Below, piece by piece: positions 8,975 to 34,993 of a stretch of DNA of 63,795 bases (the stretch's first letter is position 1; the number at the start of each line of letters is the position of its first letter). The translations under genes were made by a program, and so were the position numbers. The DNA comes from Sporichthyaceae bacterium. Its GTDB lineage: Bacteria > Actinomycetota > Actinomycetes > Sporichthyales > Sporichthyaceae. The notes beneath the pieces were generated by a model. That model was given only the letters and a program-made list of their open reading frames with translations, had not been told where the DNA came from and ran no database searches. Where the stretch lies: positions 1-63,795 of the forward strand of contig DASXPS010000165.1 in the NCBI GenBank assembly GCA_036493475.1, read 5' to 3'.

Positions 8975-9045
8975 GTGGACTCCTTCATGCAGGGACGGCC
9001 GCACGGACGGGACGCCGTCGGCACCGGTTCGACGTTCATGAGTTG

Positions 9046-19061: not shown

Positions 19062-20794
19062 TGACCCCCTCGACCACGGCGCGCCGGGCCGCCCTGGAAG
19101 GCCGTCATGCGACCTGGGTGCCGCGCACCATCTCCGGCCACTTCGACCACGCCGCGGCGCAGTTCCCGGACCGGCCGTACCTGATGACCGCGGACCGCAT
19201 CTACAGCTACGCCGAAATCCGGGAGTGGTCGCGCACCATCGCCTCGGGGCTCATCGCCCGCGGCATCGCGCCCGGCGATCACGTCGCGATGGCCCTCGCG
19301 AACCTTCCGGAGTTCGTCGCCATCAAGCTGGCGATCTCCCGGGTCGGCGCCGTCGCCGTCCCGATCAACTACAACCTGCGGCGCAACGAACTCGCCTACA
19401 TCCTCGACCAGTCCAAGGCCCGCGCCCTGTTCGTCATGGACCAGTTGCGCGACATCGACTACCTGACCGAGCTTGACGCGATGGTGCCCGGTTGGGAAAG
19501 CGCCGCGGGCGGCGGCGTCCTGCCGGAACTCGCGCACGTGTTCGTGATCGCAACCGCCGGTGGCGAGCCGGCCCGCGGCACGGGAATCAAGGCCCTGACG
19601 CAGAGCCGGACCGCGGGCAGCGACGTCGTGCTGTCGGCTCGCGAAGCCGTCGGGGATCCGCACTTCCGATCGGACGTGATCTACACGTCGGGGACCACGG
19701 GGCGTCCGAAGGGCTCGATGTGCACGCACGACATGGTGGCGCGGATCGCCTACGCCTCGGCCTACACGCGGGCCTTCGACGACGGTCGGCGGATCATCTT
19801 CGCGCTGCCGCTGTACCACGTCTTCGGATACGTCGAGTGCATGATCGCGACGACGTTCGTCGGGGGCGCGATCATCCCGCACGTGGCTTTCGACGCTGAG
19901 CGGATGCTCGCCGAGACAGAGCGATTCCGGGCTACCGAGTGGGTCGGCGTGCCGCTGATGACGATGGCAATGCTCGACCTCCTGAAGAACCGGACGTTCG
20001 ACCTGTCGAGCCTGGTCGCGGTCTTCAACTCCGGTGGGCTGTCCCCGGCCTGGATCTGGGGGCAAATCCGCACCGCCTTCGGCGTCGACGAGATCTGCAC
20101 CGCGTACGGCATGACCGAAACCACTGCGTCGACCACCTGCGTCATGCCCGAGGATCCCGACGAGCGCTTGCAGAACAGCCACGGCCGGATGAAGCTCGGC
20201 GGCGTCGCCGGTGACCCGTCCCTCGGCGGAGCGCTGGCGGAGTACCGCGTGGTCGAGCCGGACACCGGGCAGGACGTGACCTCCGGGGAGCCGGGCGAGC
20301 TGATCTGTCGAGGTCCGGTCGTCACCCTCGGCTACTACAACAAACCGGAGGAGACCGCCGAGGCCTTCACGGCCGACGGTTGGTTCCGCACCGGTGACAT
20401 CGGCCGGATCGACGCCGACGGCTATCTCACACTGACCGGTCGGCTCAAGGAGTCCTACCGCTGCAACGGGGAGATGGTCATGCCGAAGGAGATCGAGGAT
20501 CTCCTCAACGAACACCCCCTGGTCGCCACGTCCTACGTGGTTGGCATCCCGCACGAGAAGATGGGCGAGGTCGGCTGCGTCTGTGTCGTCCCCGCGGGCC
20601 GCACCCGGGTGGACCCCGAGGAACTCATCGAGCTGTGCCGGGCCAACCTCGCCAGGTTCAAGGTGCCGCGCCACGTGGTGTTCGTGACCGCCGACGAGAT
20701 CCCGATGACTGCGACCGGCCGGCCGCAGAAGTTCAAGCTGATCGAGTTGGCGAAGACTCGGCTCGCAGAGCTCCCGCCGGACTCGGTGCGGTGA
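19061..20794 (+). CDS. Acyl-CoA synthetase with Arg in place of the catalytic Lys
   Basis: 577-residue ANL-superfamily enzyme. The P-loop-like A3 motif is YTSGTTGRPKGSM, A5 is AYGMTETTAS, A7 GWFRTGDIG and A8 RLKESYRCNGE. In the C-terminal A10 motif, homologues have TGKxQK, with the Lys needed for adenylation; here it is TATGRPQKFKL, with Arg554. It would activate a carboxylate to its CoA thioester, but the substitution may reduce or change the first half-reaction. It is last in the PHA-like operon. Its 3' end overlaps the convergent CoA-transferase gene by 62 bp. Confidence 0.85.
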   Translation: MTPSTTARRAALEGRHATWVPRTISGHFDHAAAQFPDRPYLMTADRIYSYAEIREWSRTIASGLIARGIAPGDHVAMALANLPEFVAIKLAISRVGAVAVPINYNLRRNELAYILDQSKARALFVMDQLRDIDYLTELDAMVPGWESAAGGGVLPELAHVFVIATAGGEPARGTGIKALTQSRTAGSDVVLSAREAVGDPHFRSDVIYTSGTTGRPKGSMCTHDMVARIAYASAYTRAFDDGRRIIFALPLYHVFGYVECMIATTFVGGAIIPHVAFDAERMLAETERFRATEWVGVPLMTMAMLDLLKNRTFDLSSLVAVFNSGGLSPAWIWGQIRTAFGVDEICTAYGMTETTASTTCVMPEDPDERLQNSHGRMKLGGVAGDPSLGGALAEYRVVEPDTGQDVTSGEPGELICRGPVVTLGYYNKPEETAEAFTADGWFRTGDIGRIDADGYLTLTGRLKESYRCNGEMVMPKEIEDLLNEHPLVATSYVVGIPHEKMGEVGCVCVVPAGRTRVDPEELIELCRANLARFKVPRHVVFVTADEIPMTATGRPQKFKLIELAKTRLAELPPDSVR

Positions 20795-21980
20795 TCAGGG
20801 CAATCTCGTCGGCCGAGTAGCCGGCTTCGGCGAGTACTTCCTCGGTGTGCTCCCCGACGGCGGGCGGCTGTCGCATCGGCGCAGTCCGTGCCACGTCCAT
20901 CGGCAGATGGAGTTGTTGGAGGCCGGGGATCCGGCCGGGTTCGGCGTCGACCACCAGCTGACGTTCGCCGGTCAGCGGGTCCGCCAGCGCCGCGGCAAGG
21001 TCGTGCACGGGGCTCGCCGGAACGCCCGCGGACCACAGCGCGTCCAGCCATTCCCGGCCGCCGCGAGCCTTCAGCCGGCTGCCGATCAGCTCGGCGAGTT
21101 CATCGCGGCGAGCAATGCGGTCAGCCAGGGAGTGGAACCGGGGATCGTCCGCCAAGTCCAACGCCCCGAGAACCTCGCACAGCGTTCGAAAAGTGCGGTC
21201 CGTGGAGGTGGCGATCATGATCGGGGAGTCGGCCGTATCCCAGACCTGGTAGGGCGCGGCGCTCGGGGCGGCCGAACCGAGCCGACCGGGGAATTGCCCA
21301 CTGCCGAGATAGCCCATGATCTGATGACTCATCAGAAACAAGCCACTGTCGACGAGGCTCGCTTCGAGGGACTGCGGCCCGCACGCCGGGTCGGCGCTGC
21401 GTCGGCGAAGCGCCGCTTGGATGGACAGCGCTGCCCACATCCCCGTCGTCATGTCGATGATGGAGGGAGCGGCACGGCAGGGACCGCCGTTGGGCTCCCC
21501 CGTGGCCTCCAGGATTCCGGTGTACGCCTGAATCAGCGCGTCGTAACCGGCCCGGCCGTACCCAATGGGGCCGGTGCCGAAGGCACTGACCGCACAGTGC
21601 ACAACGCTGGGATTGACGGCGGCCAGCGCGGCGAAATCCAGCCCCAGTCGGCCGGCGACCCCTGGCCGGAACGATTCGACGACCACATCTGCGCGCGAGG
21701 CCAGCCGCAGGACGGCGTCGCGGCCTTCCGGGCGGCGCGTGTCGACGGCAAGACTGCGCTTGTTGCGATTGAACGCCAGGAAGACCGTCGCCTCGTCGGG
21801 CTGCCCCGGACGGCCGGACCAGCGGGGCGGCAGACTCCGGGTCGCCTCACCCACCCCGGGGCGCTCGACCTTGATGACGTCGGCGCCCAGGTCGGCCAGG
21901 ATGAGGCAGGCGAGGGGGCCGGCGATGTTCTCGCTCATGTCCAATACGCGGACATCGGCGTACGTCTCCTCGAAACGCAT
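20733..21980 (-). CDS. Family III CoA transferase (CaiB/BaiF-like)
   Basis: 415 residues. The N terminus (VRVLDMSENIAGPLACLILA) and LGADVIKVERPGVGEATR are family hallmarks, as are FNRNKRSLAVD and VVESFRPGVAGRLGLDF. The catalytic Asp is in APSIIDMTTGMWA. It moves CoA between an acyl donor and a carboxylate intermediate. The ATG at 21980 has GGAGG 8 nt upstream. It is monocistronic on the minus strand behind an operator-like repeat, and divergent from the thiolase-tetR pair. Confidence 0.87.
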   Translation of the reverse strand: MRFEETYADVRVLDMSENIAGPLACLILADLGADVIKVERPGVGEATRSLPPRWSGRPGQPDEATVFLAFNRNKRSLAVDTRRPEGRDAVLRLASRADVVVESFRPGVAGRLGLDFAALAAVNPSVVHCAVSAFGTGPIGYGRAGYDALIQAYTGILEATGEPNGGPCRAAPSIIDMTTGMWAALSIQAALRRRSADPACGPQSLEASLVDSGLFLMSHQIMGYLGSGQFPGRLGSAAPSAAPYQVWDTADSPIMIATSTDRTFRTLCEVLGALDLADDPRFHSLADRIARRDELAELIGSRLKARGGREWLDALWSAGVPASPVHDLAAALADPLTGERQLVVDAEPGRIPGLQQLHLPMDVARTAPMRQPPAVGEHTEEVLAEAGYSADEIALITAPSPAGALRAESSPTRSA

Positions 21981-21990
21981 CGGGGGGCCT

Positions 21991-22010
21991 CCGAACGGAC
22001 GGTCGTTAGG
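21991..22010. promoter_or_regulatory. TetR-type operator-like site before the CoA transferase
   Basis: CCGAACGGACGGTCGTTAGG is a 20-bp imperfect palindrome (7 of 10 positions pair), 10 nt before the CoA-transferase ATG. It shares CGTTAGG with the site at 14826-14846. On the minus strand it overlaps a TAACGA hexamer that could be a -10 element. Confidence 0.5.
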
Positions 22011-22073
22011 TGGTGATGTCGCGATGGTGCCACACCACCACGTCTCGGGGAAGTCGCAGCCGGTCGGCCACGA

Positions 22074-22110: not shown

Positions 22111-22143
22111 GTGGCGGTGGTTCTGCCGCGAAGGGGGTGCGGA

Positions 22144-23358
22144 GTGGCCGATACGTATCTCGCCGGTGCTGCCATGACCCGCTTTGGCAAAGCTGTCGGC
22201 ACGATCCCCGAGATGGCCGGCGCGGTCGTCCGGGACGCCCTGGCCGACGCGGGCGCGACGCCGGCGGAGGTGCAGCAGGTTTTCTTCGGCAACTCCGCCG
22301 CCGGCCTGCTGCAGGGTCAGGAGATGATCCGCGGGCAGGTCTACCTCGCCGAGACCGGGTTGCTCGGGGCCTCGATCGTCAACGTGGAAAACGCCTGCGC
22401 GGCCTCCTCGTCGGCGTTCGCGCTCGCCTGCGCTGCGGTCTCCTCCGGACAGGCTGACATTGCCCTGGCGGTCGGCGCCGAAAGGCTGATGGTTCCGGAC
22501 AAGGTGCGGGCCTTCGCGGCGTTGGTGTCGGCCACCGACCTGGAGCGGCGCCCGGAGATGCGCGAGCTGGTCTGGGACCTGGCGCTGGGCGGCAGCCCGG
22601 AGCCGGTGATGCCGTCGAGCTCGCCGCTGATGGTCCACTACGCGGAGAAGGCAGCCGCGTACCTGGAACGGGCCGGCGGCAGCGTCGAGGACCTGGCGCG
22701 CGTCGTGGTGAAGAGCCGTCAGGCCGGTTCACTGAACCCCAATGCCCAGTTCCGGACCCCGGCCACCGTGGACGAGGTCCTGGCCGGTCGACTCATCCAC
22801 CCGCCGCTGCACATGGCCATGTGCTCACCGCTTTCTGACGGTGCAGCAGCACTGGTGGTGATGAGCGAACGCGCCGCCCGCAGCCGCGGCCGGACCGGCC
22901 TACGGGTGCGCGCCACCTGCATCGCTTCCAACAATCCGCTGGCCGGGGTGACCCCGACGCAGGCCGCCTCCGCCGCCGCCTACCAGCGCGCGGGCCTTGG
23001 ACCGGACGACATCGACGTGGTCGAGGTACACGATGCGGCGGCCTCCGCCGAGCTGATGCTGGTGGAAGAACTCGGGCTCACCCCACCCGGAACCGCCATC
23101 AAGCTGCTTCGCGACGGCGAAATCTCCTTGGGTGGTCGGCTCCCGGTGAATACCGGTGGCGGCCTGCTCTCGCGCGGACACCCCATCGGCGCCACCGGCG
23201 CGGCACAGCTCGTGGAGCTCGCCGACCAGCTTCGCGGGCGCGCCGGAGCACGCCAGGTCCTAGGAGCGCGGATCGGATTGGCGCAGAATGGTGGCGGGGT
23301 TTTCTACGGTGACGAAGCAACTGTCACCGTCACTATCCTCGAAGCGAGCGCCGGTTGA
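22144..23358 (+). CDS. Thiolase (acetyl-CoA acetyltransferase / SCP2-type)
   Basis: 404 residues. The acyl-accepting Cys85 is in NVENACAASSSAF, the HD motif in VEVHDAAASAEL, and the active-site His in GGGLLSRGHPIGATG. All three are intact, so thiolytic cleavage of 3-ketoacyl-CoA is likely. The GTG at 22144 was chosen; an in-frame GTG at 22111 lies inside the operator region and is less likely. It is 14 nt upstream of the tetR gene and probably co-transcribed with it. Confidence 0.85.
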   Translation: MADTYLAGAAMTRFGKAVGTIPEMAGAVVRDALADAGATPAEVQQVFFGNSAAGLLQGQEMIRGQVYLAETGLLGASIVNVENACAASSSAFALACAAVSSGQADIALAVGAERLMVPDKVRAFAALVSATDLERRPEMRELVWDLALGGSPEPVMPSSSPLMVHYAEKAAAYLERAGGSVEDLARVVVKSRQAGSLNPNAQFRTPATVDEVLAGRLIHPPLHMAMCSPLSDGAAALVVMSERAARSRGRTGLRVRATCIASNNPLAGVTPTQAASAAAYQRAGLGPDDIDVVEVHDAAASAELMLVEELGLTPPGTAIKLLRDGEISLGGRLPVNTGGGLLSRGHPIGATGAAQLVELADQLRGRAGARQVLGARIGLAQNGGGVFYGDEATVTVTILEASAG

Positions 23359-23372
23359 CGAGAGGAGGACGT

Positions 23373-24020
23373 ATGGCGGCCATGGCAAACGGTTCGGCAG
23401 CCGGGGCGTCCAACCGGTCTGTGGTGCCCGAAGCGATCGTGCGGGAGTCGATCCGGCTCTTCGCGGAGCACAGCTACCCGGTCGTGGGCATGCGCGACCT
23501 GAGCAAAGCAGTCGGCCTGCAGCCGGGCAGCCTCTACGCGCACATCAGCAGCAAGGAAGACCTGCTGATGCTGATCGTGGAGGAGGGCATCACCAACTAC
23601 ATCGATGCCATCTCGGCGGCAATCGACACCGACGAGCCCGCGGACGTGCGCCTACGTGCGGCCATCCACGCGCACATGCGGGTACTCGCGGATACGCTCG
23701 AACAGACGAAAGTCACCTTCAACCAGTGGCGTTATCTCGGCCCCGAAAACCGTGAGCGAGTGGTCGGTCTGCGGCACCAGTACGAGGATCTCTTCTTCTC
23801 GGTCACTGCGCAGGGCATCAAGAACGGCGAGCTACGCCCCCTGCCACACCTCAAGGCCTCGCTGCTCTCCGTGATCGGTGGGCTCAACTTCGCCGCGGAA
23901 TGGTACTCGCCCGATAAGCCGGAGACGCCGGAATCCTTGGGCGACGCGATAGCAGACCTGCTGTTGGAGGGGATTGTCACGACCCGAAGGACGACACCTA
24001 CTCGTCGAGCCCGACGTTGA
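23373..24020 (+). CDS. TetR-family transcriptional regulator
   Basis: 215 residues. The N-terminal helix-turn-helix is MRDLSKAVGLQPGSLYAHIS followed by SKEDLLMLIVEEG. The remainder is the helical ligand-binding domain. The start is set by GAGGAGG 4 nt before the ATG. It is the only regulator found between 7 and 41 kb, so it is the best candidate to bind the repeated ACGAACG/CGTTCGT sites. Ligands of related regulators in catabolic clusters are often acyl-CoA intermediates. Its last 23 nt overlap the convergent enoyl-CoA hydratase gene. Confidence 0.88.
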   Translation: MAAMANGSAAGASNRSVVPEAIVRESIRLFAEHSYPVVGMRDLSKAVGLQPGSLYAHISSKEDLLMLIVEEGITNYIDAISAAIDTDEPADVRLRAAIHAHMRVLADTLEQTKVTFNQWRYLGPENRERVVGLRHQYEDLFFSVTAQGIKNGELRPLPHLKASLLSVIGGLNFAAEWYSPDKPETPESLGDAIADLLLEGIVTTRRTTPTRRARR

Positions 24021-24819
24021 ATCGTGGAGATCTCTTCTCGAGAAACGCCGTCACGGCCTCGAGCAGGTCGGGCTGCCGGTGCAGCGCGTCCGTGACCTGG
24101 TAGCTGGTGTTCATCGCGGTCGGGAAGTCCTGAGTCCAGGACGCCCGTAGCGCCTGCTTGGTGGCCTCCAGCGCGCGCCACGGCTTGTTGGCGATCTTTG
24201 CCGCGAGTTCCAACGCGGTGGGCACCAGGTCGTCGGGCTCGACGACGCGGGAGACCAAGCCCAGGGTGAGCGCCCGCTGCGCGTCGATGACCTCACCGGT
24301 CAGGGCCAGCTCGGCGGCGATGCCCGCGCCGACCACTTTCGGTAACAGCCAACTCCCACCGTTGCCGGGCGCGAGCCCCATGTTGATGTAGGTCTCCCCC
24401 AGCTTGGCCGCGGTCGAGGCAATGCGCAGGTCGCAGGCCAGCGCGAAATCCAGGCCGCCCGCCGTCGCGCCGCCGTTGATGGCGGCGAGGAACACCAGCC
24501 GGGAGGCGACGATGCGCTGGGTGAGCGGGAAGAGCGCGCGTGCGTTGAACGGCTCGCTGCGTATGGGTAGCTCGTTGATCAGGTAGTCGCGCATGGCGAC
24601 CAGGTCGGCCCCGGCGCAGAACTGCTTACCCGCTCCCGTGAGGACCACGACCCGCACCGACGGATCGGGCTCCCACGCGTCGAGCAGGCCGAACAGGTCA
24701 CGGACGAACTCGACGACCACGCCGTTGCCGCGATCCGGCCGGTTCAGCGTCACCAGGGCCACGCCCGGCGCGGGCCGCTGGTAGTAGAGCGTCTCGAGAT
24801 CAACGCGATCGTCCGCCAT
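23998..24819 (-). CDS. Enoyl-CoA hydratase/isomerase family protein (atypical active site)
   Basis: 273 residues, crotonase fold. The oxyanion-hole regions are GKQFCAGADLVAM and NGGATAGGLDFALACD. By eye, the first catalytic Glu of hydratases (GGGxE) is Asp here (AGGLD). The second position (PEIxxG) is Tyr (TYINMGLAPGNGG). So simple hydration may not be its reaction; isomerase or C-C hydrolase roles are open. It is the last gene of the six-gene minus-strand operon beginning with the acyl-CoA dehydrogenase. Confidence 0.8.
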   Translation of the reverse strand: MADDRVDLETLYYQRPAPGVALVTLNRPDRGNGVVVEFVRDLFGLLDAWEPDPSVRVVVLTGAGKQFCAGADLVAMRDYLINELPIRSEPFNARALFPLTQRIVASRLVFLAAINGGATAGGLDFALACDLRIASTAAKLGETYINMGLAPGNGGSWLLPKVVGAGIAAELALTGEVIDAQRALTLGLVSRVVEPDDLVPTALELAAKIANKPWRALEATKQALRASWTQDFPTAMNTSYQVTDALHRQPDLLEAVTAFLEKRSPRFNVGLDE

Positions 24820-24830
24820 CTGACCCACTC

Positions 24831-26402
24831 TCAGGCCCCCGCGCCACCGGCGATGGCGCGATCTGTGGCCCAGTATCGGGCGCGGACCTCGCGCCGCAGG
24901 ATCTTGCCGTAGGCGCTGGTGGGCAGATCGTCGACGAAGTCAACGTCCTTGGGCTTCTTGTAGCCCGCCAGGTACCCGGCGCAGTAGTCGATCAACTCGT
25001 TGGCCGTCGGCGCGGTGCCCCCCTCCGCCACCACGACGGCCCGCACCGCCTCGCCCCAGTATTCGTCGGGAACGCCGACCACGCAGACGCCGGCCACCGA
25101 TGGATGGGTGATCAGCACCTCCTCGACCTCGCGAGGGTAGACGTTGTTGCCGCCGGAAATGATCATGTCCTTGGTCCGGTCGAGCAGGAAGAGGTAGCCG
25201 CCGGCATCGAACTGCCCGACATCGCCGGTGTGCAACCAGCCGCCGCGCAGCGTCTCGGCAGAGGCCTCCGGGTTGTTCCAGTAACCGGTCATCACAATGT
25301 CCCCGCGCACCACGATTTCGCCGCTGACGCCGGGCGGGCATTCGTTGTCCTGCTCGTCGAAGATCTTCACCTCGACGTCGGTTCGGGTGAACCCCGCCGA
25401 GGCCAGCCGAGGGTCGTCGTTCTTCACCAATTCCACATGCTCTGAGCGCGGGAGCACGGTGGCGGTGATCGGGCACTCGCCCTGGCCGTAGATCTGCACG
25501 AAGACCGGGCCGAACGTTTCGACCGCTTTCTTCAGATGCTCGACGTAGATGGGGCCGCCGCCGTAGCAGACGGCCTGCCACGACGACAGGTCGTACTTGC
25601 CGGGTTCGAATTCCTCCAGGCATTTCACGATCTGCGTGGGCGCCATGAACGCGATGTGGGTGACCCCGAGGCGCTCGACGTCAGCGAAGGTGGCGTCCGG
25701 AGAGAAGCCGGTCGCGGTGCAGATCGCGTTGTTCGCACCGCGGGCCACGGCGGGTAGCGCCACGATGCCGCTGCCGTGTGAGAGCGGCGCGACGTGCAGC
25801 ATCACGTCCTCGTGGGTGATGTTGTAGCAGTCGGCCAGATAGTTCATCACGCACACCCGAACCACGCGGTGGGTCCAGGTCGCGCCCTTGGGCTTGCCGG
25901 TCGTGCCCGAGGTGTAAAAAAGCCAGCAGGGGTCGGTCTCGGTGACGTCGATCGGCGCGGACAGGGGATTCTGACTGCCGGTCAGCTCGGTGTAGCTCGC
26001 CAACGCCGCCGAGCAACCGACCCCGAAGCGGTGCTCGATGCCGGCGAACTCTGCCCAATGCTCGTCCAGCGGGCCCTCGAACTCGGCGCTGTGCACCAGC
26101 GCTCTGGCCCCGGAGTTCTGCACCAGGTACGCCATTTCCAGCGGGTGCAGGCGCGCGTTCATCGGCACCACCACCAACCCCGCCGCGAAGCACCCGAAAA
26201 TCACCTCGAGTATCTCGGGCCGGTTCGACATGACGAACGCGACGCGGTCGCCCTTGCGCAGCCCGCGGGCCAGTAGCTCCCCGCCGAGGGCGAGCGAACG
26301 GTCGGCGAATAGACGGTAGGTGGTGATCTCGTCGCCGAATTGCAGCGCCGGCCGGTCCGGGAACCGCACCGCCGACTTGGTCAGGAACGTCGCCGCGTTC
26401 AC
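24831..26402 (-). CDS. Acyl-CoA synthetase (FadD-like)
   Basis: 523 residues. A3 is LFYTSGTTGKPKGATW, A5 is QIYGQGECPITA (a G-Q-G-E variant of the usual YGxTE), A7 is GWLHTGDVG and A8 RTKDMIISGGNNVYPREVEE. The A10 motif YGKILRREVRARY keeps the catalytic Lys, unlike the other synthetase in this cluster. The GTG start lies 4 nt after the DUF35 stop. It probably activates a carboxylic acid released by ring opening, feeding the dehydrogenase, MaoC and aldolase/thiolase genes of the same operon. Confidence 0.88.
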   Translation of the reverse strand: MNAATFLTKSAVRFPDRPALQFGDEITTYRLFADRSLALGGELLARGLRKGDRVAFVMSNRPEILEVIFGCFAAGLVVVPMNARLHPLEMAYLVQNSGARALVHSAEFEGPLDEHWAEFAGIEHRFGVGCSAALASYTELTGSQNPLSAPIDVTETDPCWLFYTSGTTGKPKGATWTHRVVRVCVMNYLADCYNITHEDVMLHVAPLSHGSGIVALPAVARGANNAICTATGFSPDATFADVERLGVTHIAFMAPTQIVKCLEEFEPGKYDLSSWQAVCYGGGPIYVEHLKKAVETFGPVFVQIYGQGECPITATVLPRSEHVELVKNDDPRLASAGFTRTDVEVKIFDEQDNECPPGVSGEIVVRGDIVMTGYWNNPEASAETLRGGWLHTGDVGQFDAGGYLFLLDRTKDMIISGGNNVYPREVEEVLITHPSVAGVCVVGVPDEYWGEAVRAVVVAEGGTAPTANELIDYCAGYLAGYKKPKDVDFVDDLPTSAYGKILRREVRARYWATDRAIAGGAGA

Positions 26403-26406
26403 GTCG

Positions 26407-26829
26407 TCAGGCGGCCGTGAACCATGCCGCGGGTCGCTGTGCGACCTCCGCGGCGTCGGCCGGCGCGAAGCTCACCCGCTGGTCGCACACGTAGGAGTTC
26501 CAGGTGCCGTCCGCGCCCGGATGTAACCGGCACATCAGCTGCGGCCCCTCGTCGAGCTTCACGATGCCGATGCAGTACGGCGGTTCGACGTCGAACGCGC
26601 TGGGCGCACCCATGCGCAGAATCGTGAAGGTCTGTAGTTGACCGGCGCCGCTCACCTGCTGCCAGTCGAGGCTGCCACTGAAGCAGTTCGGGCAGCGGTA
26701 CTTCGGGTACATGATCGCCGTCGCGCAGTCGTTGCATTTCTGCACGATCAACCGGCCCTCGGCCAACGCGGCCGCGAACGGCCCCGTCAGCTCGTCGGCA
26801 TTTTGGATGTAACCAGTGTCGACGCTCAT
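26407..26829 (-). CDS. DUF35 OB-fold / zinc-ribbon protein
   Basis: 140 residues. The rubredoxin-like zinc ribbon has four Cys, CNDC and CPNC (CNDCATAIMYPKYRCPNC), followed by the OB-fold (GQLQTFTILRMG, YCIGIVKLDEGP). DUF35 proteins partner with thiolase-fold enzymes; in the steroid Ltp2-ChsH2 complex the DUF35 part is needed for aldolase activity. It sits next to a Cys-less thiolase-like gene, to which it is linked by a 26-codon mini-ORF. Confidence 0.85.
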   Translation of the reverse strand: MSVDTGYIQNADELTGPFAAALAEGRLIVQKCNDCATAIMYPKYRCPNCFSGSLDWQQVSGAGQLQTFTILRMGAPSAFDVEPPYCIGIVKLDEGPQLMCRLHPGADGTWNSYVCDQRVSFAPADAAEVAQRPAAWFTAA

Positions 26830-26906
26830 CGCTGCACCCTCGATCGCCCGCGCGGGCCGTAGGTGGCGGGCACTGTGACATTGATTCGTTCGCTACGCTC
26901 GCTCAT
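26826..26906 (-). other. Mini-ORF starting MSERSERI bridging two genes (repeat copy 2)
   Basis: A 26-codon frame. Its ATG overlaps the thiolase-like stop (ATGA) and its TGA overlaps the DUF35 ATG (ATGA). Its first 25 nt are the second copy of the element at 4044-4068, with 3 mismatches. After MSERSERI the peptide is unrelated (NVTVPATYGPRGRSRVQR). The same double overlap in both copies suggests a translational relay (inference). Confidence 0.5.
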
Positions 26907-28123
26907 CGGGTCGCCCTCTCCAGCATCATGATCTGCGCGTCCATGTACGAGCCGCCGCTGCCGCCGACGATGCACCGTTGCGCATTCGGCACCTGGCGCT
27001 CCGGGCCGGCCCGATGCAGCAGTTGGCGGATACCTTCAATCAGCAGCGCGGTGCCGCCGCCGACGCCGGTGTGCCCGGCGGAGAGCAGACCACCGTTGGT
27101 GTTCAACGGGAACTGCCCACCCGGGGAGAACCGGCCCTTGTAGAACTCCCGCGCCGCCTCGCCCTTCGGGGAAATGCGCAGGCCTTCCACGGCGATGGCG
27201 AGCACGGCGGCGTAGGAGTCGTAGACCTCGCCGAGGTCGGCGTCCTCCGGACCCCAGCTCGCCGCCTCGTAGGCCTCCTTCGCCGCTTCCACCCAACCGA
27301 GCACGCCCAAGTCCGCGTCCTGACCGGCGGAGTAGTGCGACACGCAACCGCCGGAGCCGCCGATGCGCACCCACGCGTCGTGGCGCTTCGCGGCCTCCGT
27401 CGCGCTGGTCATCACGAACGCACCGGCGCCGTCGGCGAGGAACGGGCATTCGTAGGCGTGAATCGGGTCGGAGATCAACTTGGAGGCGAGAATCTTTTCC
27501 GCGGTCAGCGCCTTCTCGTAGTACATGGCGTTCGGGTTCAGGTTCGCCCAGGCGCGCAGCGCGACGCAGATGGCGGCCATTTCCTCGGCGCTCGATCCGG
27601 ACTGGTGCATGTACCGCTGGGTGATCAGACCGCCGATCGCGTTGAATTGCAGGCCGGTCGGCGCCTCCCACTCCTTCGGAATGCCGTTGACCGAGAGCAT
27701 GTCGATCATTGCCTGCAGATCGGCCGAGCCCCACCGCTCGGAGTACACGACGAGCACGTTACGGGCCTGCCCCGAGGCAACCAGGCCGGCGGCCATCCGG
27801 GTGGCGTTGTCCGAGGTGGAACCCCCGGAGTGCACCATCACCGAGCTCTTCACCCGGCCGTGCAGACCGAGCTCCTCGGCGACCCGGCTGAAGATCAGGT
27901 CGGCCTGGTCCGCAATGCCGTGCAGACAGGGAATGAGCACGATCTGGTCGATGTCCGTGTGCGCCAACTGCGCGTCGGAGATCGCCCGCGCGGAGGCCTC
28001 GACGATTTGCGCCATGAAGCCGCGTTCGCGGTACACCCCGGACGGGATCTCTCCGATGCCGATGAATGCGGCGTCGTTGGCGCTGCCCGGCTCTGGATAG
28101 GGCGGGGTCCACACTTCGGTCAT
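26903..28123 (-). CDS. Cys-less thiolase-like protein, candidate Ltp2-type aldolase
   Basis: 406 residues, thiolase fold. Where thiolases have the nucleophilic Cys (N-x3-A-C-A), this protein reads MVHSGGSTSDNA, with Ser99 at that place. The HD motif is replaced by VYDSYAAV (Tyr301, Tyr304), while the C-terminal His is kept (GGLLSAGHTGVGGG). Loss of the Cys plus tyrosines in the pocket is the pattern described for the steroid side-chain aldolase Ltp2. The adjacent DUF35 and MaoC genes match the partners of that system. A retro-aldol C-C cleavage of a beta-hydroxyacyl-CoA is predicted; thiolysis is unlikely. Confidence 0.75.
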   Translation of the reverse strand: MTEVWTPPYPEPGSANDAAFIGIGEIPSGVYRERGFMAQIVEASARAISDAQLAHTDIDQIVLIPCLHGIADQADLIFSRVAEELGLHGRVKSSVMVHSGGSTSDNATRMAAGLVASGQARNVLVVYSERWGSADLQAMIDMLSVNGIPKEWEAPTGLQFNAIGGLITQRYMHQSGSSAEEMAAICVALRAWANLNPNAMYYEKALTAEKILASKLISDPIHAYECPFLADGAGAFVMTSATEAAKRHDAWVRIGGSGGCVSHYSAGQDADLGVLGWVEAAKEAYEAASWGPEDADLGEVYDSYAAVLAIAVEGLRISPKGEAAREFYKGRFSPGGQFPLNTNGGLLSAGHTGVGGGTALLIEGIRQLLHRAGPERQVPNAQRCIVGGSGGSYMDAQIMMLERATR

Positions 28124-28126
28124 GTC

Positions 28127-28606
28127 TCAGCCCTCCAGGGGCGTGCGGCGGCGGGCGAGCATGATCCAGTGGAACGTCATCACCGTCTCGTCCTTCTGAT
28201 TGATCACGTCGTAGTCGACGTGGAGAACTCCGTACTTCGGGCTCTTGTGCGCCTGGACCTCGGAGACCGTGGCCCGTACCCGCAGCGTGTCGCCGGAGAT
28301 GACCGGCGCAGTGGCCTTCAACGAGCGGCACTCCAGCAGCGCCTCGATGCAGGTGCCGTACCAACCGCTGGTGCCGACCAGGCCGACCGCGATGCACATG
28401 GTCAGCGGACCGTGTGCGATTCGAGTGCCGAATCGGGTCCCGGAGGCGTACATCTCGTCCACGTGCAACGGATACTGATCACCCGTCAGACCCGCGAACA
28501 GGTTAATGTCGGCGGTGTCCACGGTCCGGCCGTTGGTGATGATGAAGTCGCCCGCCGCGAAGTCCTCGAAGGCGCGCTGCGGTGGCGCCCACTGGCGTTC
28601 GGTCAT
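28127..28606 (-). CDS. MaoC-type (R)-specific enoyl-CoA hydratase
   Basis: 159 residues in a single hot-dog domain with the hydratase-2 motif intact: FAGLTGDQYPLHVDEMYA holds the catalytic Asp and His, followed by IAHGPLTM. It would hydrate a 2-enoyl-CoA to the (R)-3-hydroxyacyl-CoA, the right substrate for the neighbouring aldolase-like protein. It could also supply PHA synthase, as PhaJ does. The start overlaps the dehydrogenase stop (ATGA), and 3 nt separate it from the next gene. Confidence 0.85.
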   Translation of the reverse strand: MTERQWAPPQRAFEDFAAGDFIITNGRTVDTADINLFAGLTGDQYPLHVDEMYASGTRFGTRIAHGPLTMCIAVGLVGTSGWYGTCIEALLECRSLKATAPVISGDTLRVRATVSEVQAHKSPKYGVLHVDYDVINQKDETVMTFHWIMLARRRTPLEG

Positions 28607-29745
28607 CCGGACAGCCCCATGTGGCGCGCGATCACGGTCTTCTGGATCTCGTTGGCCCCGCCGCCGACCATGCCGTGCTTGGCCTCGCGGAAGTACCGCT
28701 CCATGTCGTACTCCGGCAGTTGGGCGTAGCCGCCGTAGGCCTGCATGCCGTTGGTGGCGATCCGGAACGCGGTCTCGGCAGCGAACACCTTCGCCATTGA
28801 CACCTCCTTGGAGGCCTTTTCGCCGCGCTGCATCTTGGTCGCCGCGTTGAAGACCAACAAGCGGGCGGCAGTCAGCGCCGTTTCGTCCTCGGCCATCCGG
28901 TGCTTGAGCACCTGCAGGCTCGACAGCGGCCGGCCGAAGGCGATCCGCTCTTTCGTGTACTTGATGGTGTCGTCCAAGGCAGTGCGCGCGTTGCCGACAT
29001 AGCTGGCGGCCAGGCCGAGGCGCTCGTAGTCAAGGTGCTCGCCGATGTACTTCCAGCCCTCGCCGATCGCGCCGACGACGTTCGAGTCCGGCACCCGCAC
29101 GTCGGTCAGGAAAATCTCGGTGGTGCCCAAGCTCCGTCGCACCATCGTGGGCATCTTGCGGATGTCCAGCCCTTCGGACGTGTTCGGCATCAGGAACGTG
29201 CTGAGCCCGCCGTGGCGGTCCGGCCCGGTGCGGGCGAGCATGAAGATCCAGGCGCCGGGCAGATGGGCACCCGAGCACCACGTCTTGTTCCCGTTGAGCA
29301 CCCAGTCCCGGCCGTCGTGCTCGGCTTTGGTGCTGACGTTGGCAGCGTCCGACCCGGCTTCCGGCTCACTGATCGAGATCGAGAACCGCCGCTCGCCGCT
29401 CAGGAACGCCGGGATGTGCTCGGCCCGCTGCTCCGGTGTGCCATGCGCCACGACGTTGCTGATGGTGAACATTGACGTCATCAGGCAGGCGGCGGTGTCC
29501 AGGCTGTACTTGGCGATGGCCTCGCAGAAGATCGCGTACATCACCGGGTCCGCGTCGACCCCGCCCAGCTCCTCGGGGACCAACATCCCGAGCCAGCCGT
29601 TGGCGGCGGCCTTGCCGTAGATCTCGTCGGGAAAATCCCGGTTCTGGTCGTGCTCGCGGGTGTACTCGCGCCCCACCTCTTTCTCCATGAAGCGGTGGAG
29701 TGTGTCCTTCCACGCGATCTGTTCGTCGGTGTGCCGGAAGTCCAC
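28603..29745 (-). CDS. Acyl-CoA dehydrogenase
   Basis: 380 residues. FAD/substrate motifs are [17 protein letters not shown] and [20 protein letters not shown]. The usual catalytic Glu in YEGT is absent (VGGGANEIQ). Instead a Glu lies in LDYERLGLA (Glu241), the position used by isovaleryl-CoA and long-chain dehydrogenases, which suggests a branched or bulky substrate. It is the first gene of the operon MaoC, thiolase-like, DUF35, acyl-CoA synthetase, crotonase. It is divergent from the 6-oxocamphor hydrolase-like gene over an operator-like repeat. Confidence 0.9.
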
Positions 29746-29809: not shown

Positions 29810-29825
29810 AGGGGAAGAGTGGACC

Positions 29826-30647
29826 ATGACAACCCGTACGCCGCCGCCCGGAGGACGCCCAATGACGCGCATCGCCCCGACCTTCGACGACTACAAGGAC
29901 TCCTTCGCGAACGTCGAGTTCGAACGTCACGACGGCGTCCTCGAGATGACGCTGCACACCGAGGGCAAGCCGCTGGTGTGGAGTTCGACCTCGCACGACG
30001 AGATCGCTTATGCCTTCGACAATGTGGCGAACGACCCCGACAACAAGGTCGTGATCCTCACCGGCTCCGGTGATGCGTGGTGTCCGGAGATCGACTTCAG
30101 TTCGTTCGACCTCTCGACGGCCGGCGCCTGGGCGGAGGTCATCCACGAGGGTCAGCGCCTGCTCAATTGCATGCTGGCGATCCAGGTGCCGATCATCGCC
30201 GCGGTCAATGGGCCAGTGCTCAACCACCCGGAGATCCCGGTGCTGGCTGACATCGTGCTGGCCTCGGAAACGGCGACTTTCAGCGACTCCCCGCACTTCG
30301 CCTCCGGCATCGTCCCCGGCGATGGCGCCCACATCGTGTGGACCCATGTGCTGGGCCCCAACCGCGGCCGATACTTCTTGCTCACCGGGCAGGAACTGAA
30401 CGCCCGACAGGCGCTGGAGTACGGCGTCGTGTCGGAGGTGCTGTCGCCGGATGCCCTGCTGCCGCGCGCCCGCGAGCACGCCGCCAACATCGCGGCCAAG
30501 ACGCCCCTGGCCCGTCGCTACGCGCGGGCTGTGCTCACCCGCGAATGGAAGCGACTCATGCACGACAACCTGGGCTTCGGCATCGCGCACGAGGCGCTCG
30601 GGGTGCTCGATCTGATGGACCACATGAAGGCACAGGCAGACGCCTGA
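29826..30647 (+). CDS. 6-oxocamphor hydrolase-like crotonase (beta-diketone hydrolase)
   Basis: 273 residues, crotonase superfamily. From memory of the Rhodococcus 6-oxocamphor hydrolase (CamK/OCH), blocks such as VNGPVxNHPEIPV, [10 protein letters not shown] and [14 protein letters not shown] match closely. The four residues known to matter there (His122, His145, Asp154, Glu244) all have equivalents at a constant +12 offset: His134, His157, Asp166, Glu256. OCH cleaves a carbon-carbon bond of a bicyclic 1,3-diketone by a retro-Claisen reaction. The same reaction type on a related cyclic diketone is likely; the substrate is not proven. It is monocistronic and ends at a strong hairpin. Confidence 0.85.
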
Positions 30648-30701: not shown

Positions 30702-31538
30702 TCACAGCTTGGCCATGAATCCCGCGTCGACGGGCAGGGTCACCCCGGTCACATAGCGCGCCTCGTCCGAGGCGAGCCACAACACCGCGTTGGAGATGTC
30801 GACGGCCTGCATCCACGGGATCGGCAGCAGGTTCATCGCGGTGAAGGTGTCGCCGAAGTCCTCGAGGCGCGGGTTTTCCACGCCGGGCGCGAACGCGGCG
30901 TGGATGGCCGCGTTGTCGATCATCTTGGTGAACGTGGAACTCGGGTGCACGCTGTTCACCCGGATGAAGTGCGGCGCGAGCTCGTTGGCCAGCGTGCGCA
31001 TCAAACCGACCACCGCATGCTTGGCCATGTTGTAGTGCACCTGGTTCGGGAAACCCTTCAGGCCGGCGACCGAGCTGGTGAGCACAATCGACCCGCCGGT
31101 CCCCTGCTCGATGAGCCGCGGCACGGTGGCCTTGCAGGCGTAGTACGCGCCGTGCATCTGCACGTCGATCATGTCGCGGTAGGTGTCCTCGGGCAGCTCG
31201 GTGAAAAGCCCGGCGGACCAGATCCCGGCATTCGAGCTGACGATGTCCAGTCGGCCGAGTTCGGCGATGCCGGAGTCGACGGCGGCCTGCAACTGACCGA
31301 GATCTCGGACGTCGGCCTTGGCGATCACCATGCGGCGGTCGAGCTTCTCGACCAGCGCCGCGGTTTCCTCGAGCTCGTCCAAAGTGCCCAGCTCGTAGGG
31401 GACGGACCCGATCGGCTCGCAGATGTCGACGCCGATGATGTCGGCGCCCTCTTCGGCCATGCGGATGGCGTGAGCGCGGCCTTGGCCCCGCGCAGCCCCG
31501 GTGATGAAAGCGACCTTGCCCTTAAGACGTCCAGCCAC
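30702..31538 (-). CDS. Mycofactocin-type SDR (carveol dehydrogenase-like)
   Basis: 278 residues. The start GRLKGKVAFITGAARGQGRA, the motif VDICEPIGSVPYELGT and the inserted LDELEETAALVEKLDRRMVI mark the mycofactocin-associated SDR subfamily, whose members hold NAD tightly and include carveol dehydrogenase of limonene-degrading Rhodococcus. The active site is SSNAGIWS, SIVLTSSVAG, HYNMAKHAV. It oxidises alcohols, often terpenoid, with mycofactocin as acceptor. No mycofactocin biosynthesis genes lie in this window. It is the last gene of the operon starting at 34926. Confidence 0.85.
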   Translation of the reverse strand: MAGRLKGKVAFITGAARGQGRAHAIRMAEEGADIIGVDICEPIGSVPYELGTLDELEETAALVEKLDRRMVIAKADVRDLGQLQAAVDSGIAELGRLDIVSSNAGIWSAGLFTELPEDTYRDMIDVQMHGAYYACKATVPRLIEQGTGGSIVLTSSVAGLKGFPNQVHYNMAKHAVVGLMRTLANELAPHFIRVNSVHPSSTFTKMIDNAAIHAAFAPGVENPRLEDFGDTFTAMNLLPIPWMQAVDISNAVLWLASDEARYVTGVTLPVDAGFMAKL

Positions 31539-31565: not shown

Positions 31566-32534
31566 TCAGGAATTGCGCCAATGCTCCATGGGCGACCCGG
31601 CGACCGGAGATCGCAACACGTAGACGGCCGGGTTGCCCAGGCCGCCCAGGTACAGCGTCTTCAGGTCCGGTCCGCCGAAAGCAAGGCTGGACAGGTTGGC
31701 CATCCGGGACCCACGGCTCTGCGCGATCTGATCGAAGGTCAGATCGCCCATGGCGTAGGCCGCGACCGCCTCGTGGGCCCGGGGACCGACGTCGGAGAAC
31801 ACAACGCTCCACGTCAGATCCGCTGCCACGCGGATCAGGCGGTTGGTGATGACGCTGGTGACCCAGAGGGCACCCTCGGCGTCGAATGCCAGGCCGTCGG
31901 GGAAGGTGTCCCCGCCGAAATTGATCGGAACCGGATTGGACAACGCGCTGTCCGGCGCCACGTCGAAGCGCGTGGTTCGGCACGCGAAGGTCTCGTTGAC
32001 GAACAGGTGCCGGCCGTCGGGTGAGATCCGCAGCTCGTTCGTCCAGTTCAACCCGTCGGCCGCCACGCTGACCGTGCCGTCCTGCACCAGCAGGATCTGG
32101 CCGCTGTTCTCCTCGGCGGTGTAGTGCTGGTGGTTGCGCGTCCGGGCACTGATGGTGATCCAGGCCCGGTCGCCGTCCAGCAACACGAAGTTGGTGTGGG
32201 GGACCCGGCGGCCGTCGAGCTCCGTCGCAAACGGGCGGGCCTCGCCGTGGCGGCCAACCCGCCAGACACCGCCGCCCCTGCCCAAGTTGGCGAACAGGAA
32301 GTCGCCCCCGGGCGTCAGCGCGAACCCGTTCGGGCGGAAGCCCTGTCCGATGAGATCCGCCTCCACGGCGGGACCGGTCGTCCCGTCGGGTGCGATCCGC
32401 GCGATGCCCAACGTCCAGTCGCAGGTGTAGAGCGCACCGTCGGGCGCGGCCAGTACGCACTCCGGCCGGTTCAGTCCGTGCCCAAGTGGCGCGAGGTCCT
32501 CGAGCCGGAACGGCTCGATCTCGGTCAGGGTCAT
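31566..32534 (-). CDS. SMP-30/gluconolactonase-like beta-propeller lactonase
   Basis: 322 residues. Metal-ligand motifs of the SMP-30 family are visible: NRPECVLAAPDG (Glu), GLNWTNELRISPDG (Asn) and FPDGLAFDAEG (Asp). Such calcium-dependent enzymes hydrolyse lactones. Its ATG overlaps the stop of the SDR that follows the Baeyer-Villiger monooxygenase, which supports the role of opening the lactone that enzyme would form. The stop lies 27 nt before the next SDR. Confidence 0.82.
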   Translation of the reverse strand: MTLTEIEPFRLEDLAPLGHGLNRPECVLAAPDGALYTCDWTLGIARIAPDGTTGPAVEADLIGQGFRPNGFALTPGGDFLFANLGRGGGVWRVGRHGEARPFATELDGRRVPHTNFVLLDGDRAWITISARTRNHQHYTAEENSGQILLVQDGTVSVAADGLNWTNELRISPDGRHLFVNETFACRTTRFDVAPDSALSNPVPINFGGDTFPDGLAFDAEGALWVTSVITNRLIRVAADLTWSVVFSDVGPRAHEAVAAYAMGDLTFDQIAQSRGSRMANLSSLAFGGPDLKTLYLGGLGNPAVYVLRSPVAGSPMEHWRNS

Positions 32535-33277
32535 AGCGCCAGGTAGCCGCCGTCGACGGGGATCGTGACCCCGGTGACGTAGGTGGACATGTCGGAGGCC
32601 AGAAAGAGGGCGGGACCGGCGATCTCGTGCGTCTCCCCCACCCGGCCCAGTGGCACTCGCTGGAGGAACTTCGCGTTGCCGTCCCCCTCGACCGTCATCA
32701 GGCCGCTCTTCATCCGCCCCGGTGCCAGCCCGTTCGCTCGCCCGCCGGTCGGCCCCAGAGTGCGGGCGAAATATTGCACCAGGGAGCGGATGGCCGCCTT
32801 GGTGGCGCCGTAGGCGGCGCTGGACCGCGGCGCCGAGAACCCGGCGATCGACGACAGGAAGATCATGCTGGCGCCGGGGTGCTTCATGGCGTCCAGCACC
32901 GAGACGGACATGTCCCACTGCCCGGTGAGATTGACGCTGAGAACTTGGTCCCACACCTGCATCTGATCGGGATCGCCCGGTCGGCTGCGGGGCGATATGC
33001 CGGCGTTGTTGACCAGCACGTCGATCTTGCCGTGATACTGCTCGGAAATCCGGGCACCGAACGCCATGACGGCCTCGCGATCACCGATGTCGAGGGTCTC
33101 GGCAACGGCGGAACCACCATCGGCCACGATCTTGGCGGCCATCGTCTCGGCGGCGTCGGCGTGCCGATCGACGACCACGACGTGCGCCCCTTCGCCGGCC
33201 AGGGCGATCGAGATGGCCGAGCCCAATCCGCCACCGCCGCCGGTCACCACCGCCGTCTTGCCGGCCAACGAAATCAT
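32531..33277 (-). CDS. SDR oxidoreductase
   Basis: 248-residue classical SDR. The cofactor motif is TGGGGGLG, then VLVNNAGIS, catalytic Ser in IFLSSIAGF, AAYGATKAA, and C-terminal YVTGVTIPVDGGY. In the catalytic neighbourhood the usual RVNxxxPG is RANGLAPGR, a small deviation. ATGA overlaps join it to both the Baeyer-Villiger monooxygenase before it and the lactonase after it. It probably oxidises the alcohol that gives the ketone substrate, or a hydroxy acid after lactone opening. Confidence 0.82.
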   Translation of the reverse strand: MISLAGKTAVVTGGGGGLGSAISIALAGEGAHVVVVDRHADAAETMAAKIVADGGSAVAETLDIGDREAVMAFGARISEQYHGKIDVLVNNAGISPRSRPGDPDQMQVWDQVLSVNLTGQWDMSVSVLDAMKHPGASMIFLSSIAGFSAPRSSAAYGATKAAIRSLVQYFARTLGPTGGRANGLAPGRMKSGLMTVEGDGNAKFLQRVPLGRVGETHEIAGPALFLASDMSTYVTGVTIPVDGGYLAL

Positions 33278-34926
33278 CGGAGTTCCCGGCCCGACATGAG
33301 GTAGCCCTTGTAGTCGTGCTCGCGCACGTCGTCGCAATATTCCCGGAACCGTGGATTGCCACCGACGAACAGCAGCACCTCTCGCTTGTCGCGGCCCTCG
33401 AGGTTCTGGTTGACCCCGGTGAACCAGGAGTTGGTCTGACCCAGGAGCAGCTTGCTCTGCAGCTTCCCGGCGTAGGCCGTAAAGGCCTCAGCGGCGGCGA
33501 CCTCTGCTTCGATGCGCTCGACACCGTTCTTCTGCGCGTGCTCCATCATTTCGCTGAGCCAGTCGACGGCCAGCGCCGAGCAGCGCGGGATGTTGCAGAA
33601 GGTGGCACCGCTCTGCGGTCCGACCAGCGTGAAGAAGTTGGGGAAGCCGGGAGTCTGCATGCCCATGTAGGTCCTGATGCCCTGGTCCCAGTCATCCTTC
33701 AGCGCGGTGCCGCCCGTCCCGCGGATGTCGATGTGGTTCCACGATCCCTTGATCGCATCGAAGCCAGTGGCGTAGATGATGACGTCGAGCTCGTGCAGGC
33801 CTTCCGGGGTCTCGATGCCGTCGGGGGTGATGCGGGTGATCGACGTTGAGTGCAGGTCGACAGCCGTGACGTTGTCCTGGTTGTAGACCTCGTAATAGTT
33901 GGTCTCGAGTGGGACCCGCTTCATCCCGAACCCGTGGTCCTTGGGGATCAGGATGTCGGCGACCCGGGGGTCGTTGACCCGATCCCGGATCTTCTGCGCC
34001 ACGAACTCGGACACGTACTTGTTCGCCTCGGGGTCGGACAGAACGTCCTGATAATTCCCGAGCCACAGCGAGAAGCCGGGTCCCTGATAGAGCTCCTCCA
34101 GCTTGGCGTCGCGCTCCTCTTTGGGGACGTCGAACAGGTTCTGCAGGATGAACTCGTGCCGGTAGCCGGCGAGGGACGCATCGCACTGGGCAATGAACTC
34201 GGGATAGTTGGACTTGATGTCGTCCATCCGCTCCTGCGTCATGGGCCCGTTGCCAAGAGGCGTGCACCAGCTGGGGTCACGCACGAACACCGTCAGGTGC
34301 CCGGCGACCTTTGCCAGCTCCTGGATCACCTGCACGCCGGTCGATCCCACGCCGACCACGGCCACGCGCTTGCCGGTGAAGTCCCGTTCGGCAGGACCCA
34401 GCCCGTTGGGGTCGCGCGGCCAGGCAGCCGTGTGAATGCTCTCGCCCTTGAAGGTGTTGATGCCGGGGATCTTGGGCATCTGGGGCCAGGACAGGGGCCC
34501 GAGTGCCGAGAAGACGAAGCGCGCCGTCACCGGCGAGCGGTGCGGCTGCACGAAACCCAGTGTCCAGTGGTTGTTCTCCTCGTCCCAGATCGCGCTGTTG
34601 ACCTTGGCGTTGAAGATGAAGTCCTTGCGGATATCCATGATCTCGGCAGCGCGATGGATGTACGCCAGGACGTCGGGCTGGGCAGCAAAACGCTCCGGCC
34701 AATCCCACTCCTGCATGAGCTGGTCGTTCCAGAAGTAGCCGTAGATTTCGCTCTCGGAGTCGGTGCGGCAACCGGGGTAGCGGTTGTGGTGCCAGACCCC
34801 GCCGATGTCGTCAGAACCCTCGACCCCGAGCACCCGATAGCCCATCTCGCGCAGTCGGTAGGCCTGGTAGAGCCCGGTCAGCCCGGCGCCGATCACGACG
34901 GCGTCGAAGTCTGCGGCTTTCGTCAT
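33274..34926 (-). CDS. Type I Baeyer-Villiger monooxygenase
   Basis: 550 residues with two Rossmann motifs, GAGLTGLYQAYRL for FAD and GVGSTGVQVIQEL for NADPH. Between them is the BVMO fingerprint F-x-G-x3-H-x3-W-P as FKGESIHTAAWP (from Phe159). The N-terminal GGVWHHNRYPGCRTDSESE is also typical of cyclohexanone-monooxygenase relatives. It inserts oxygen beside a ketone to give an ester or lactone. AAGGAAG precedes the ATG. It leads the operon BVMO-SDR-lactonase-SDR, behind a perfect 16-bp palindromic operator-like site. Confidence 0.92.
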   Translation of the reverse strand: MTKAADFDAVVIGAGLTGLYQAYRLREMGYRVLGVEGSDDIGGVWHHNRYPGCRTDSESEIYGYFWNDQLMQEWDWPERFAAQPDVLAYIHRAAEIMDIRKDFIFNAKVNSAIWDEENNHWTLGFVQPHRSPVTARFVFSALGPLSWPQMPKIPGINTFKGESIHTAAWPRDPNGLGPAERDFTGKRVAVVGVGSTGVQVIQELAKVAGHLTVFVRDPSWCTPLGNGPMTQERMDDIKSNYPEFIAQCDASLAGYRHEFILQNLFDVPKEERDAKLEELYQGPGFSLWLGNYQDVLSDPEANKYVSEFVAQKIRDRVNDPRVADILIPKDHGFGMKRVPLETNYYEVYNQDNVTAVDLHSTSITRITPDGIETPEGLHELDVIIYATGFDAIKGSWNHIDIRGTGGTALKDDWDQGIRTYMGMQTPGFPNFFTLVGPQSGATFCNIPRCSALAVDWLSEMMEHAQKNGVERIEAEVAAAEAFTAYAGKLQSKLLLGQTNSWFTGVNQNLEGRDKREVLLFVGGNPRFREYCDDVREHDYKGYLMSGRELR

Positions 34927-34993
34927 GTGCACTTCCTTTTCAGCAGCTGGGCGCCGCGCTCCCGACCGAAGGAGGAGTGCAAGTCGCAGCCTC

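Follow-up and report, generated by a model that had tools for sequence, protein, structure and literature searches.

The locus examined here raises the question of whether a thiolase-fold protein without the nucleophilic Cys, encoded between a DUF35 gene and a MaoC gene, may act as a retro-aldolase outside a steroid locus, and on what kind of acyl-CoA. In the window (the whole stretch of 63,795 nucleotides analyzed, from a Sporichthyaceae bacterium), all three genes were intact on the minus strand where a sequence-only reading had placed them. They encode a stand-alone DUF35 protein (26407..26829; zf-ChsH2 and OB_ChsH2_C by Pfam), predicted to be the aldolase partner, a Cys-free thiolase-fold protein of 406 aa (26903..28123; Thiolase_C_1 by Pfam, 1e-39, and alignment), predicted to be the retro-aldolase, and a single-domain MaoC hydratase (28127..28606; MaoC_dehydratas by Pfam), which retains the catalytic hydratase-2 motif FAGLTGDQYPLHVDEMYA. 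The feature is wider than that reading gave, because the set also includes an acyl-CoA dehydrogenase (ACAD) gene (28603..29745, minus strand), which shares 4 bp with the start of the MaoC gene. Downstream of the DUF35 gene, genes for an AMP-dependent acyl-CoA ligase (24831..26402, minus strand) and a crotonase-family protein, ECH1 (23998..24828, minus strand), follow after gaps of 4 bp and 2 bp, respectively. Based on this overlap and these gaps (4, 4, and 2 bp), the six genes from ACAD to ECH1 look like one operon.

The thiolase-fold protein matched four solved structures: 7yvy, CtSal (9myr), 4u4e, and TcLtp2 (6ok1). The DUF35 protein has zinc ligands in a C4 pattern (C32-x2-C35-x10-C46-x2-C49), and its closest solved relatives were the DUF35 partners of CtSal (9myr_B) and TcLtp2 (6ok1_B). 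Strong purifying selection acts on the thiolase-like gene (dN/dS of 0.05–0.17), and the thiolase-like/DUF35/MaoC set, which recurs in eight genomes or replicons, is more than a chance arrangement.

Multiple alignment placed Gly101, within the loop S99-G100-G101, in the column of the nucleophilic Cys (NACAS). The sequence-only reading had put Ser99 in place of this Cys and Tyr301/Tyr304 in place of HD. The loss of the Cys was confirmed, but Ser99 lies two positions away from the aligned residue and was discarded as its replacement. At the HDxF position, Y301-D302-S303-Y304 was found; the His is indeed replaced by Tyr301, but the Asp is retained, and Tyr304 occupies the Phe column, where CtSal also has Tyr. 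The His of the GHP loop, missed in that reading, is retained as H351. All eight inner-clade members had YDSY, the Cys-free loop, and H351, and Y301, H351, G100, and G101 were invariant in all 17 clade members, down to approximately 36% identity. The Y301 column also contains Tyr in TcLtp2, CtSal, and 4u4e. In the alignment of the 17 clade members, no Cys was invariant: C66, C186, C226, C260, and C384 are each missing from some deeper members and were rejected as alternative nucleophiles. S303 was downgraded as a candidate general acid because deeper relatives have Ala in this column. In a subclade of relatives from the same phylum (L052, L055, L051, and similar loci), YGSY occurs instead of YDSY, adjoining DUF35 where examined. 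A 39% identical relative on the Rhizobium etli plasmid pRetNXC12e (L036 11989-13583) has the motifs YDAY and GHTG, and is encoded with DUF35 alongside P450, CoA transferase, and acetoacetate-decarboxylase-like genes. The AlphaFold model of the thiolase-like protein, built from an input alignment of four sequences, was of low confidence, with a pLDDT of 44 and a pTM of 0.46.

Mutagenesis supports Y294 in TcLtp2 and Y302 in CtSal as the catalytic base; in CtSal, the nucleophile column is Gly, and the acid Cys304 is essential, with C304S being dead (PMC12329534). The S303 column holds this Cys304 in CtSal and His296 in TcLtp2, and the H351 column holds Gln352 and the acid Tyr344, respectively. 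Since Ser is the native residue where CtSal needs Cys304, catalysis in the window protein would need H351. Given the invariant Y301, H351, G100, and G101, the variable S303, and the lack of any conserved Cys, we propose that Tyr301 may serve as the base and His351 as the acid, and the Y301/H351 pair is predicted to form a third active site of thiolase-fold retro-aldolases. The Tyr/Ser/His residue set was not found in any characterized aldolase and was present in the solved structure 4u4e. It speaks against this assignment that no characterized member uses a His in the manner suggested for H351.

A tree of 58 sequences, including Ltp2, Sal/Atf1, Cys thiolases, and Ltp3/Ltp4-like proteins, grouped the Cys-free proteins (Ltp2, Sal/Atf1, and the 26903-28123 protein) in a superclade apart from the Cys thiolases, with support of 100/99. 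Within it, the window protein's clade was separate from Ltp2, and CtSal with the Sal/Atf1-like sequences formed its own clade (100/100), with the window protein outside. Forcing the window clade together with Cys thiolases or with Ltp2 was rejected (p-AU of 0.00056 and 3e-6, respectively), these values being somewhat optimistic because the first tree had already been seen when the groups were named. The Ltp4-like sequences were retrieved with NF005924, and the Ltp3-like sequences are their neighbors; both names are our own assumed assignments. These proteins lay outside the Cys-free superclade, and hence apart from the window protein, with a long-branch warning attached to this placement. Grouping with active thiolases and an alternative nucleophilic Cys were the two ways in which the sequence-only reading was open to refutation by sequence; both failed, because the protein clustered with Ltp2/Sal-type proteins and no alternative Cys was conserved.

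Strict membership in the known groups was rejected. Ltp2 membership was rejected because of YDSY rather than YDHF, His351 rather than the acid Tyr344, and the rejected clade; Sal/Atf1 membership because of Ser303 and His351 in place of Cys304 (YDCY) and Gln352, and the position outside the clade; and SCP2-type thiolase membership because of the missing nucleophilic Cys and HDCF and the AU test. The protein does belong to the broad group of DUF35-paired thiolase-fold aldolases, as it has a place in the superclade, the base Tyr, and a linked DUF35. The prediction of a Cys-free, DUF35-paired thiolase-fold retro-aldolase outside a steroid locus was thus borne out as far as inference from sequence can carry it.

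One of the closest known systems is Ltp2-ChsH2, an aldolase for steroid C3 side chains (from Thermomonospora curvata, 6ok1, and the igr operon of M. tuberculosis). It shares the Cys-free thiolase fold, the Tyr of YDxx, and a DUF35 partner with a C4 zinc ribbon, and it acts after a dehydrogenase and a MaoC hydratase. However, the window protein is only 24% identical to TcLtp2 and forms a separate clade, with His351 against Tyr344 and Ser303 against His296. MaoC and DUF35 are fused in ChsH2, whereas they are separate single-domain proteins in the window, and a steroid pathway lies alongside Ltp2-ChsH2. The claim that the locus reproduces the Ltp2-ChsH2 partner set therefore applies only loosely. 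Sal-Shy, an aldolase for bile-acid C5 side chains (9myr), and Atf1-ChsH4 (Mycolicibacterium neoaurum) share the Gly in the nucleophile column, YDxY, and a DUF35 partner, which in the case of ChsH4 is also stand-alone. In contrast, CtSal is 28% identical, falls in another clade, and has the essential acid Cys304 and Gln352 where the window protein has Ser303 and His351. The solved "thiolase" 4u4e, which we take to be from Sphaerobacter thermophilus, is 31% identical and has the same YDS...H set without Cys, but it forms its own branch beside Sal/Ltp2. A case with a non-steroid substrate is IpfD-IpfE of Sphingomonas/Rhizorhabdus, which removes the side chain of ibuprofen-CoA with proposed release of propionyl-CoA by retro-aldol cleavage (PMC9195938, PMC6063337). 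The likeness, an SCPx-thiolase-like protein with a partner, was drawn from published descriptions, and the substrate differs in being an aromatic dihydrodiol-CoA. Since Atf1-ChsH4 has a stand-alone DUF35 and IpfD-IpfE is a proposed non-steroid case, the window system is a variant of a known group, not a new group. What appears to be new, judged from sequence, is the distinct clade, the different predicted acid, and the non-steroid, BVMO-linked setting.

Steroid-degradation markers were searched for genome-wide. KshA was not found in the host draft genome, an absence that is strong but not absolute, and HsaA gave only weak scores below the cut-off. KshA was also not found in two relatives (G001 and G003) carrying 93–94% identical orthologs of the thiolase-like protein. 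As a positive control, KshA matches of about 1e-90 were obtained in the Ltp2-bearing genomes G034, G051, and G067. The marker is not perfect, because G100 has an Ltp2 ortholog and gave no KshA_C match; G004, with a 92–93% identical ortholog, gave weak KshA_C-family matches. The sequence-only reading, which had seen no steroid ring-degradation genes, was upheld at the genome scale for the two markers KshA and HsaA. A second thiolase-like/DUF35 pair was observed in the host genome (G000:C32:26666-28080; L001, L012); its thiolase-like protein is nearer to Ltp2 in the tree and 38% identical to TcLtp2, and it has the motif YDGF as well as Arg in the acid column.

The cassette lies in a wider cluster. 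To one side are a family III CoA transferase (20733..22064, minus strand), nearest to the succinate-glutarate/HMG type and ruled out as an alpha-methylacyl-CoA racemase on scores, a SCP2/BbsB-like thiolase (22111..23358, plus strand), and a TetR-type regulator (23355..24020, plus strand; family taken from annotations of homologous neighbors). The thiolase provides an internal contrast: as the sequence-only reading had stated, it keeps Cys and HD (VENACAASS, VHD, and GHP), and it was placed among the Cys thiolases. To the other side are a divergent crotonase-family protein, ECH2 (29820..30647, plus strand), a mycofactocin-coupled SDR (30702..31538, minus strand; above the TIGR03971 cut-off), an SMP-30/gluconolactonase-like candidate lactonase (31566..32543, minus strand), an SDR oxidoreductase (32531..33286, minus strand), a type I Baeyer-Villiger monooxygenase (BVMO; 33274..34929, minus strand), an SDR dehydrogenase (35130..35870, plus strand) adjoining a cytochrome P450 (35939..37189, plus strand), and a Fer4_15 ferredoxin for the P450 (37183..37446, plus strand). 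The four closest solved relatives of the mycofactocin SDR were deposited under the name carveol dehydrogenase. The BVMO shares 47% identity with OTEMO of the camphor pathway, its closest match among solved BVMOs (582 bits versus 447 bits for the next), and the top solved match of the P450 was an ancestral CYP125. A Liv-type ABC transporter whose binding protein is of the Peripla_BP_6 family (7364-13928, minus strand) is also conserved close to this cluster in G003 (L041); its role is possibly substrate uptake.

Relatives from the host's family, among them a Sporichthya MAG, also carry the cluster at 19–37 kb, as does plasmid pR8L1 of Rhodococcus sp. 008; Nocardioides gansuensis has part of it. 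The order ACAD-MaoC-aldolase-DUF35 is common to four host-family genomes, N. gansuensis, and pR8L1, and the DUF35 gene adjoins the thiolase-like gene at every clade locus examined. Identities to the pR8L1 proteins were 82% (BVMO), 81% (SDR), 78% (P450), 75% (ACAD), 72% (SMP-30), 68% (thiolase-like), 68% (MaoC), and 57% (DUF35). The neighbors of the cassette differ between lineages. The link to ring opening is not universal, because the cassettes of two 66% identical relatives (G180 and G260) had no BVMO in the 16–20 kb read; near one of them, luciferase-like monooxygenases and an epoxide hydrolase were encoded. On the Rhodococcus ruber YC-YT1 plasmid (L077 15001-19400), an OTEMO-like BVMO (46%) lies beside another Cys-free thiolase-like gene, whose product has YDCF and Tyr at the Ltp2 acid column, with zinc-ribbon DUF35 and AtuA-type genes nearby.

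We consider it likely that the cassette is an igr-like dehydrogenase-hydratase-retroaldolase module acting after ring opening to shorten a branched acyl-CoA. Upstream of the cassette chemistry, the P450, SDRs, OTEMO-like BVMO, and candidate lactonase would open a ring, so that an alicyclic, terpenoid-like compound is the probable source of the acyl-CoA. Dehydrogenation, hydration, and retro-aldol cleavage would follow, on the model of Ltp2 and Sal. The acyl-CoA dehydrogenase would form a 2-enoyl-CoA, and the MaoC hydratase would hydrate it to a 3-hydroxyacyl-CoA that is probably tertiary or for some other reason cannot be converted into a 3-ketoacyl-CoA. A complex of the thiolase-fold protein and DUF35, as we infer, would then cleave this intermediate, releasing a short acyl-CoA (acetyl-CoA, propionyl-CoA, or another) together with either a ketone or an aldehyde. 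Tyr301 would take the 3-hydroxyl proton, His351 would protonate the acyl-CoA enolate, and the G100-G101 loop with backbone amides would form the oxyanion hole. Such a series of steps fits acyl-CoAs that carry a tertiary 3-hydroxyl, as such alcohols cannot be oxidized to 3-ketoacyl-CoA. Baeyer-Villiger opening of p-menthane ketones gives 3-branched acids, and tertiary-3-hydroxyl chains are expected after it. The OTEMO-like BVMO, the carveol-dehydrogenase-type SDR, and the P450 in the conserved cluster make a monoterpenoid source plausible.

Two other readings concern the substrate. The same retro-aldolase might act on a steroid-like C3 or C5 side chain in a cell without ring degradation, as the nearest characterized catalysts work on steroid CoA esters, the partner order is igr-like, and the P450 resembles ancestral CYP125. 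The missing KshA in the host and in two close relatives, the sub-cutoff HsaA scores, the position outside the Ltp2 and Sal/Atf1 clades, and the OTEMO-like BVMO with the carveol-dehydrogenase-type SDR make this quite unlikely. As a special case of the preferred module, we propose a camphor-like lower pathway in which 3-hydroxy-2,2,3-trimethylglutaryl-CoA would be cleaved into isobutyryl-CoA and acetoacetate. The P450, dehydrogenase, BVMO, and CoA-ligase logic of the Pseudomonas putida camphor pathway (OTEMO/CamG) and the dicarboxylate-type CoA transferase fit such a route, and published camphor degradation yields isobutyryl-CoA and three acetyl-CoA, the steps to isobutyryl-CoA being called poorly characterized. 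However, no diketocamphane monooxygenase gene was identified within the core cluster, the OTEMO-like BVMO gene of a Sphingobium plasmid lacks a thiolase-like/DUF35 pair in its vicinity, and cassette neighbors vary by lineage; this specific substrate is therefore improbable, though the module could be a source of isobutyryl-CoA in camphor-type routes.

Other readings concern the reaction itself. With H351 kept as in the GHP motif of thiolases and the Cys-type acetyl-CoA acetyltransferase 7yvy as the top PDB sequence match, the protein might use H351 and Y301 as a Cys-independent thiolase or Claisen-type acyltransferase on a 3-ketoacyl-CoA. The clade has lost both the nucleophilic Cys and the HD His, with no member regaining either, a neighboring gene already supplies a Cys/His thiolase, and the AU test opposes a thiolase grouping, which leaves this reading very unlikely. 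A non-catalytic scaffold or acyl-CoA-binding (lipid-transfer) subunit would agree with the lost nucleophile and with the frequent annotation of the family as lipid-transfer proteins. It is highly improbable given the catalytic Tyr, glycine loop, and His that stay invariant over deep divergence, the low dN/dS, and the fact that the characterized Cys-free relatives with a DUF35 partner are aldolases.

Ordinary beta-oxidation stalls at beta-branched and quaternary acyl-CoAs, and the well-known bacterial bypass is carboxylation followed by an HMG-CoA-lyase-type step (Atu/Liu). The dehydrogenase-hydratase-retroaldolase module, found on chromosomes and on a Rhodococcus plasmid, would offer a testable answer to this problem. 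It is a tentative idea, which may well prove wrong, that in terpenoid catabolism the Tyr/His clade of thiolase-fold retro-aldolases removes tertiary 3-hydroxy branches with no need for carboxylation; if true, the clade would fill the lower steps after Baeyer-Villiger opening and provide a route other than Atu/Liu. The module would also add a small-substrate member to a group of enzymes best known for cleaving steroid and bile-acid side chains, which is of interest for C-C bond biocatalysis. In this soil actinobacterium, the enzyme probably cuts the branched chains that remain once a cyclic compound (perhaps a plant terpenoid) has been opened.
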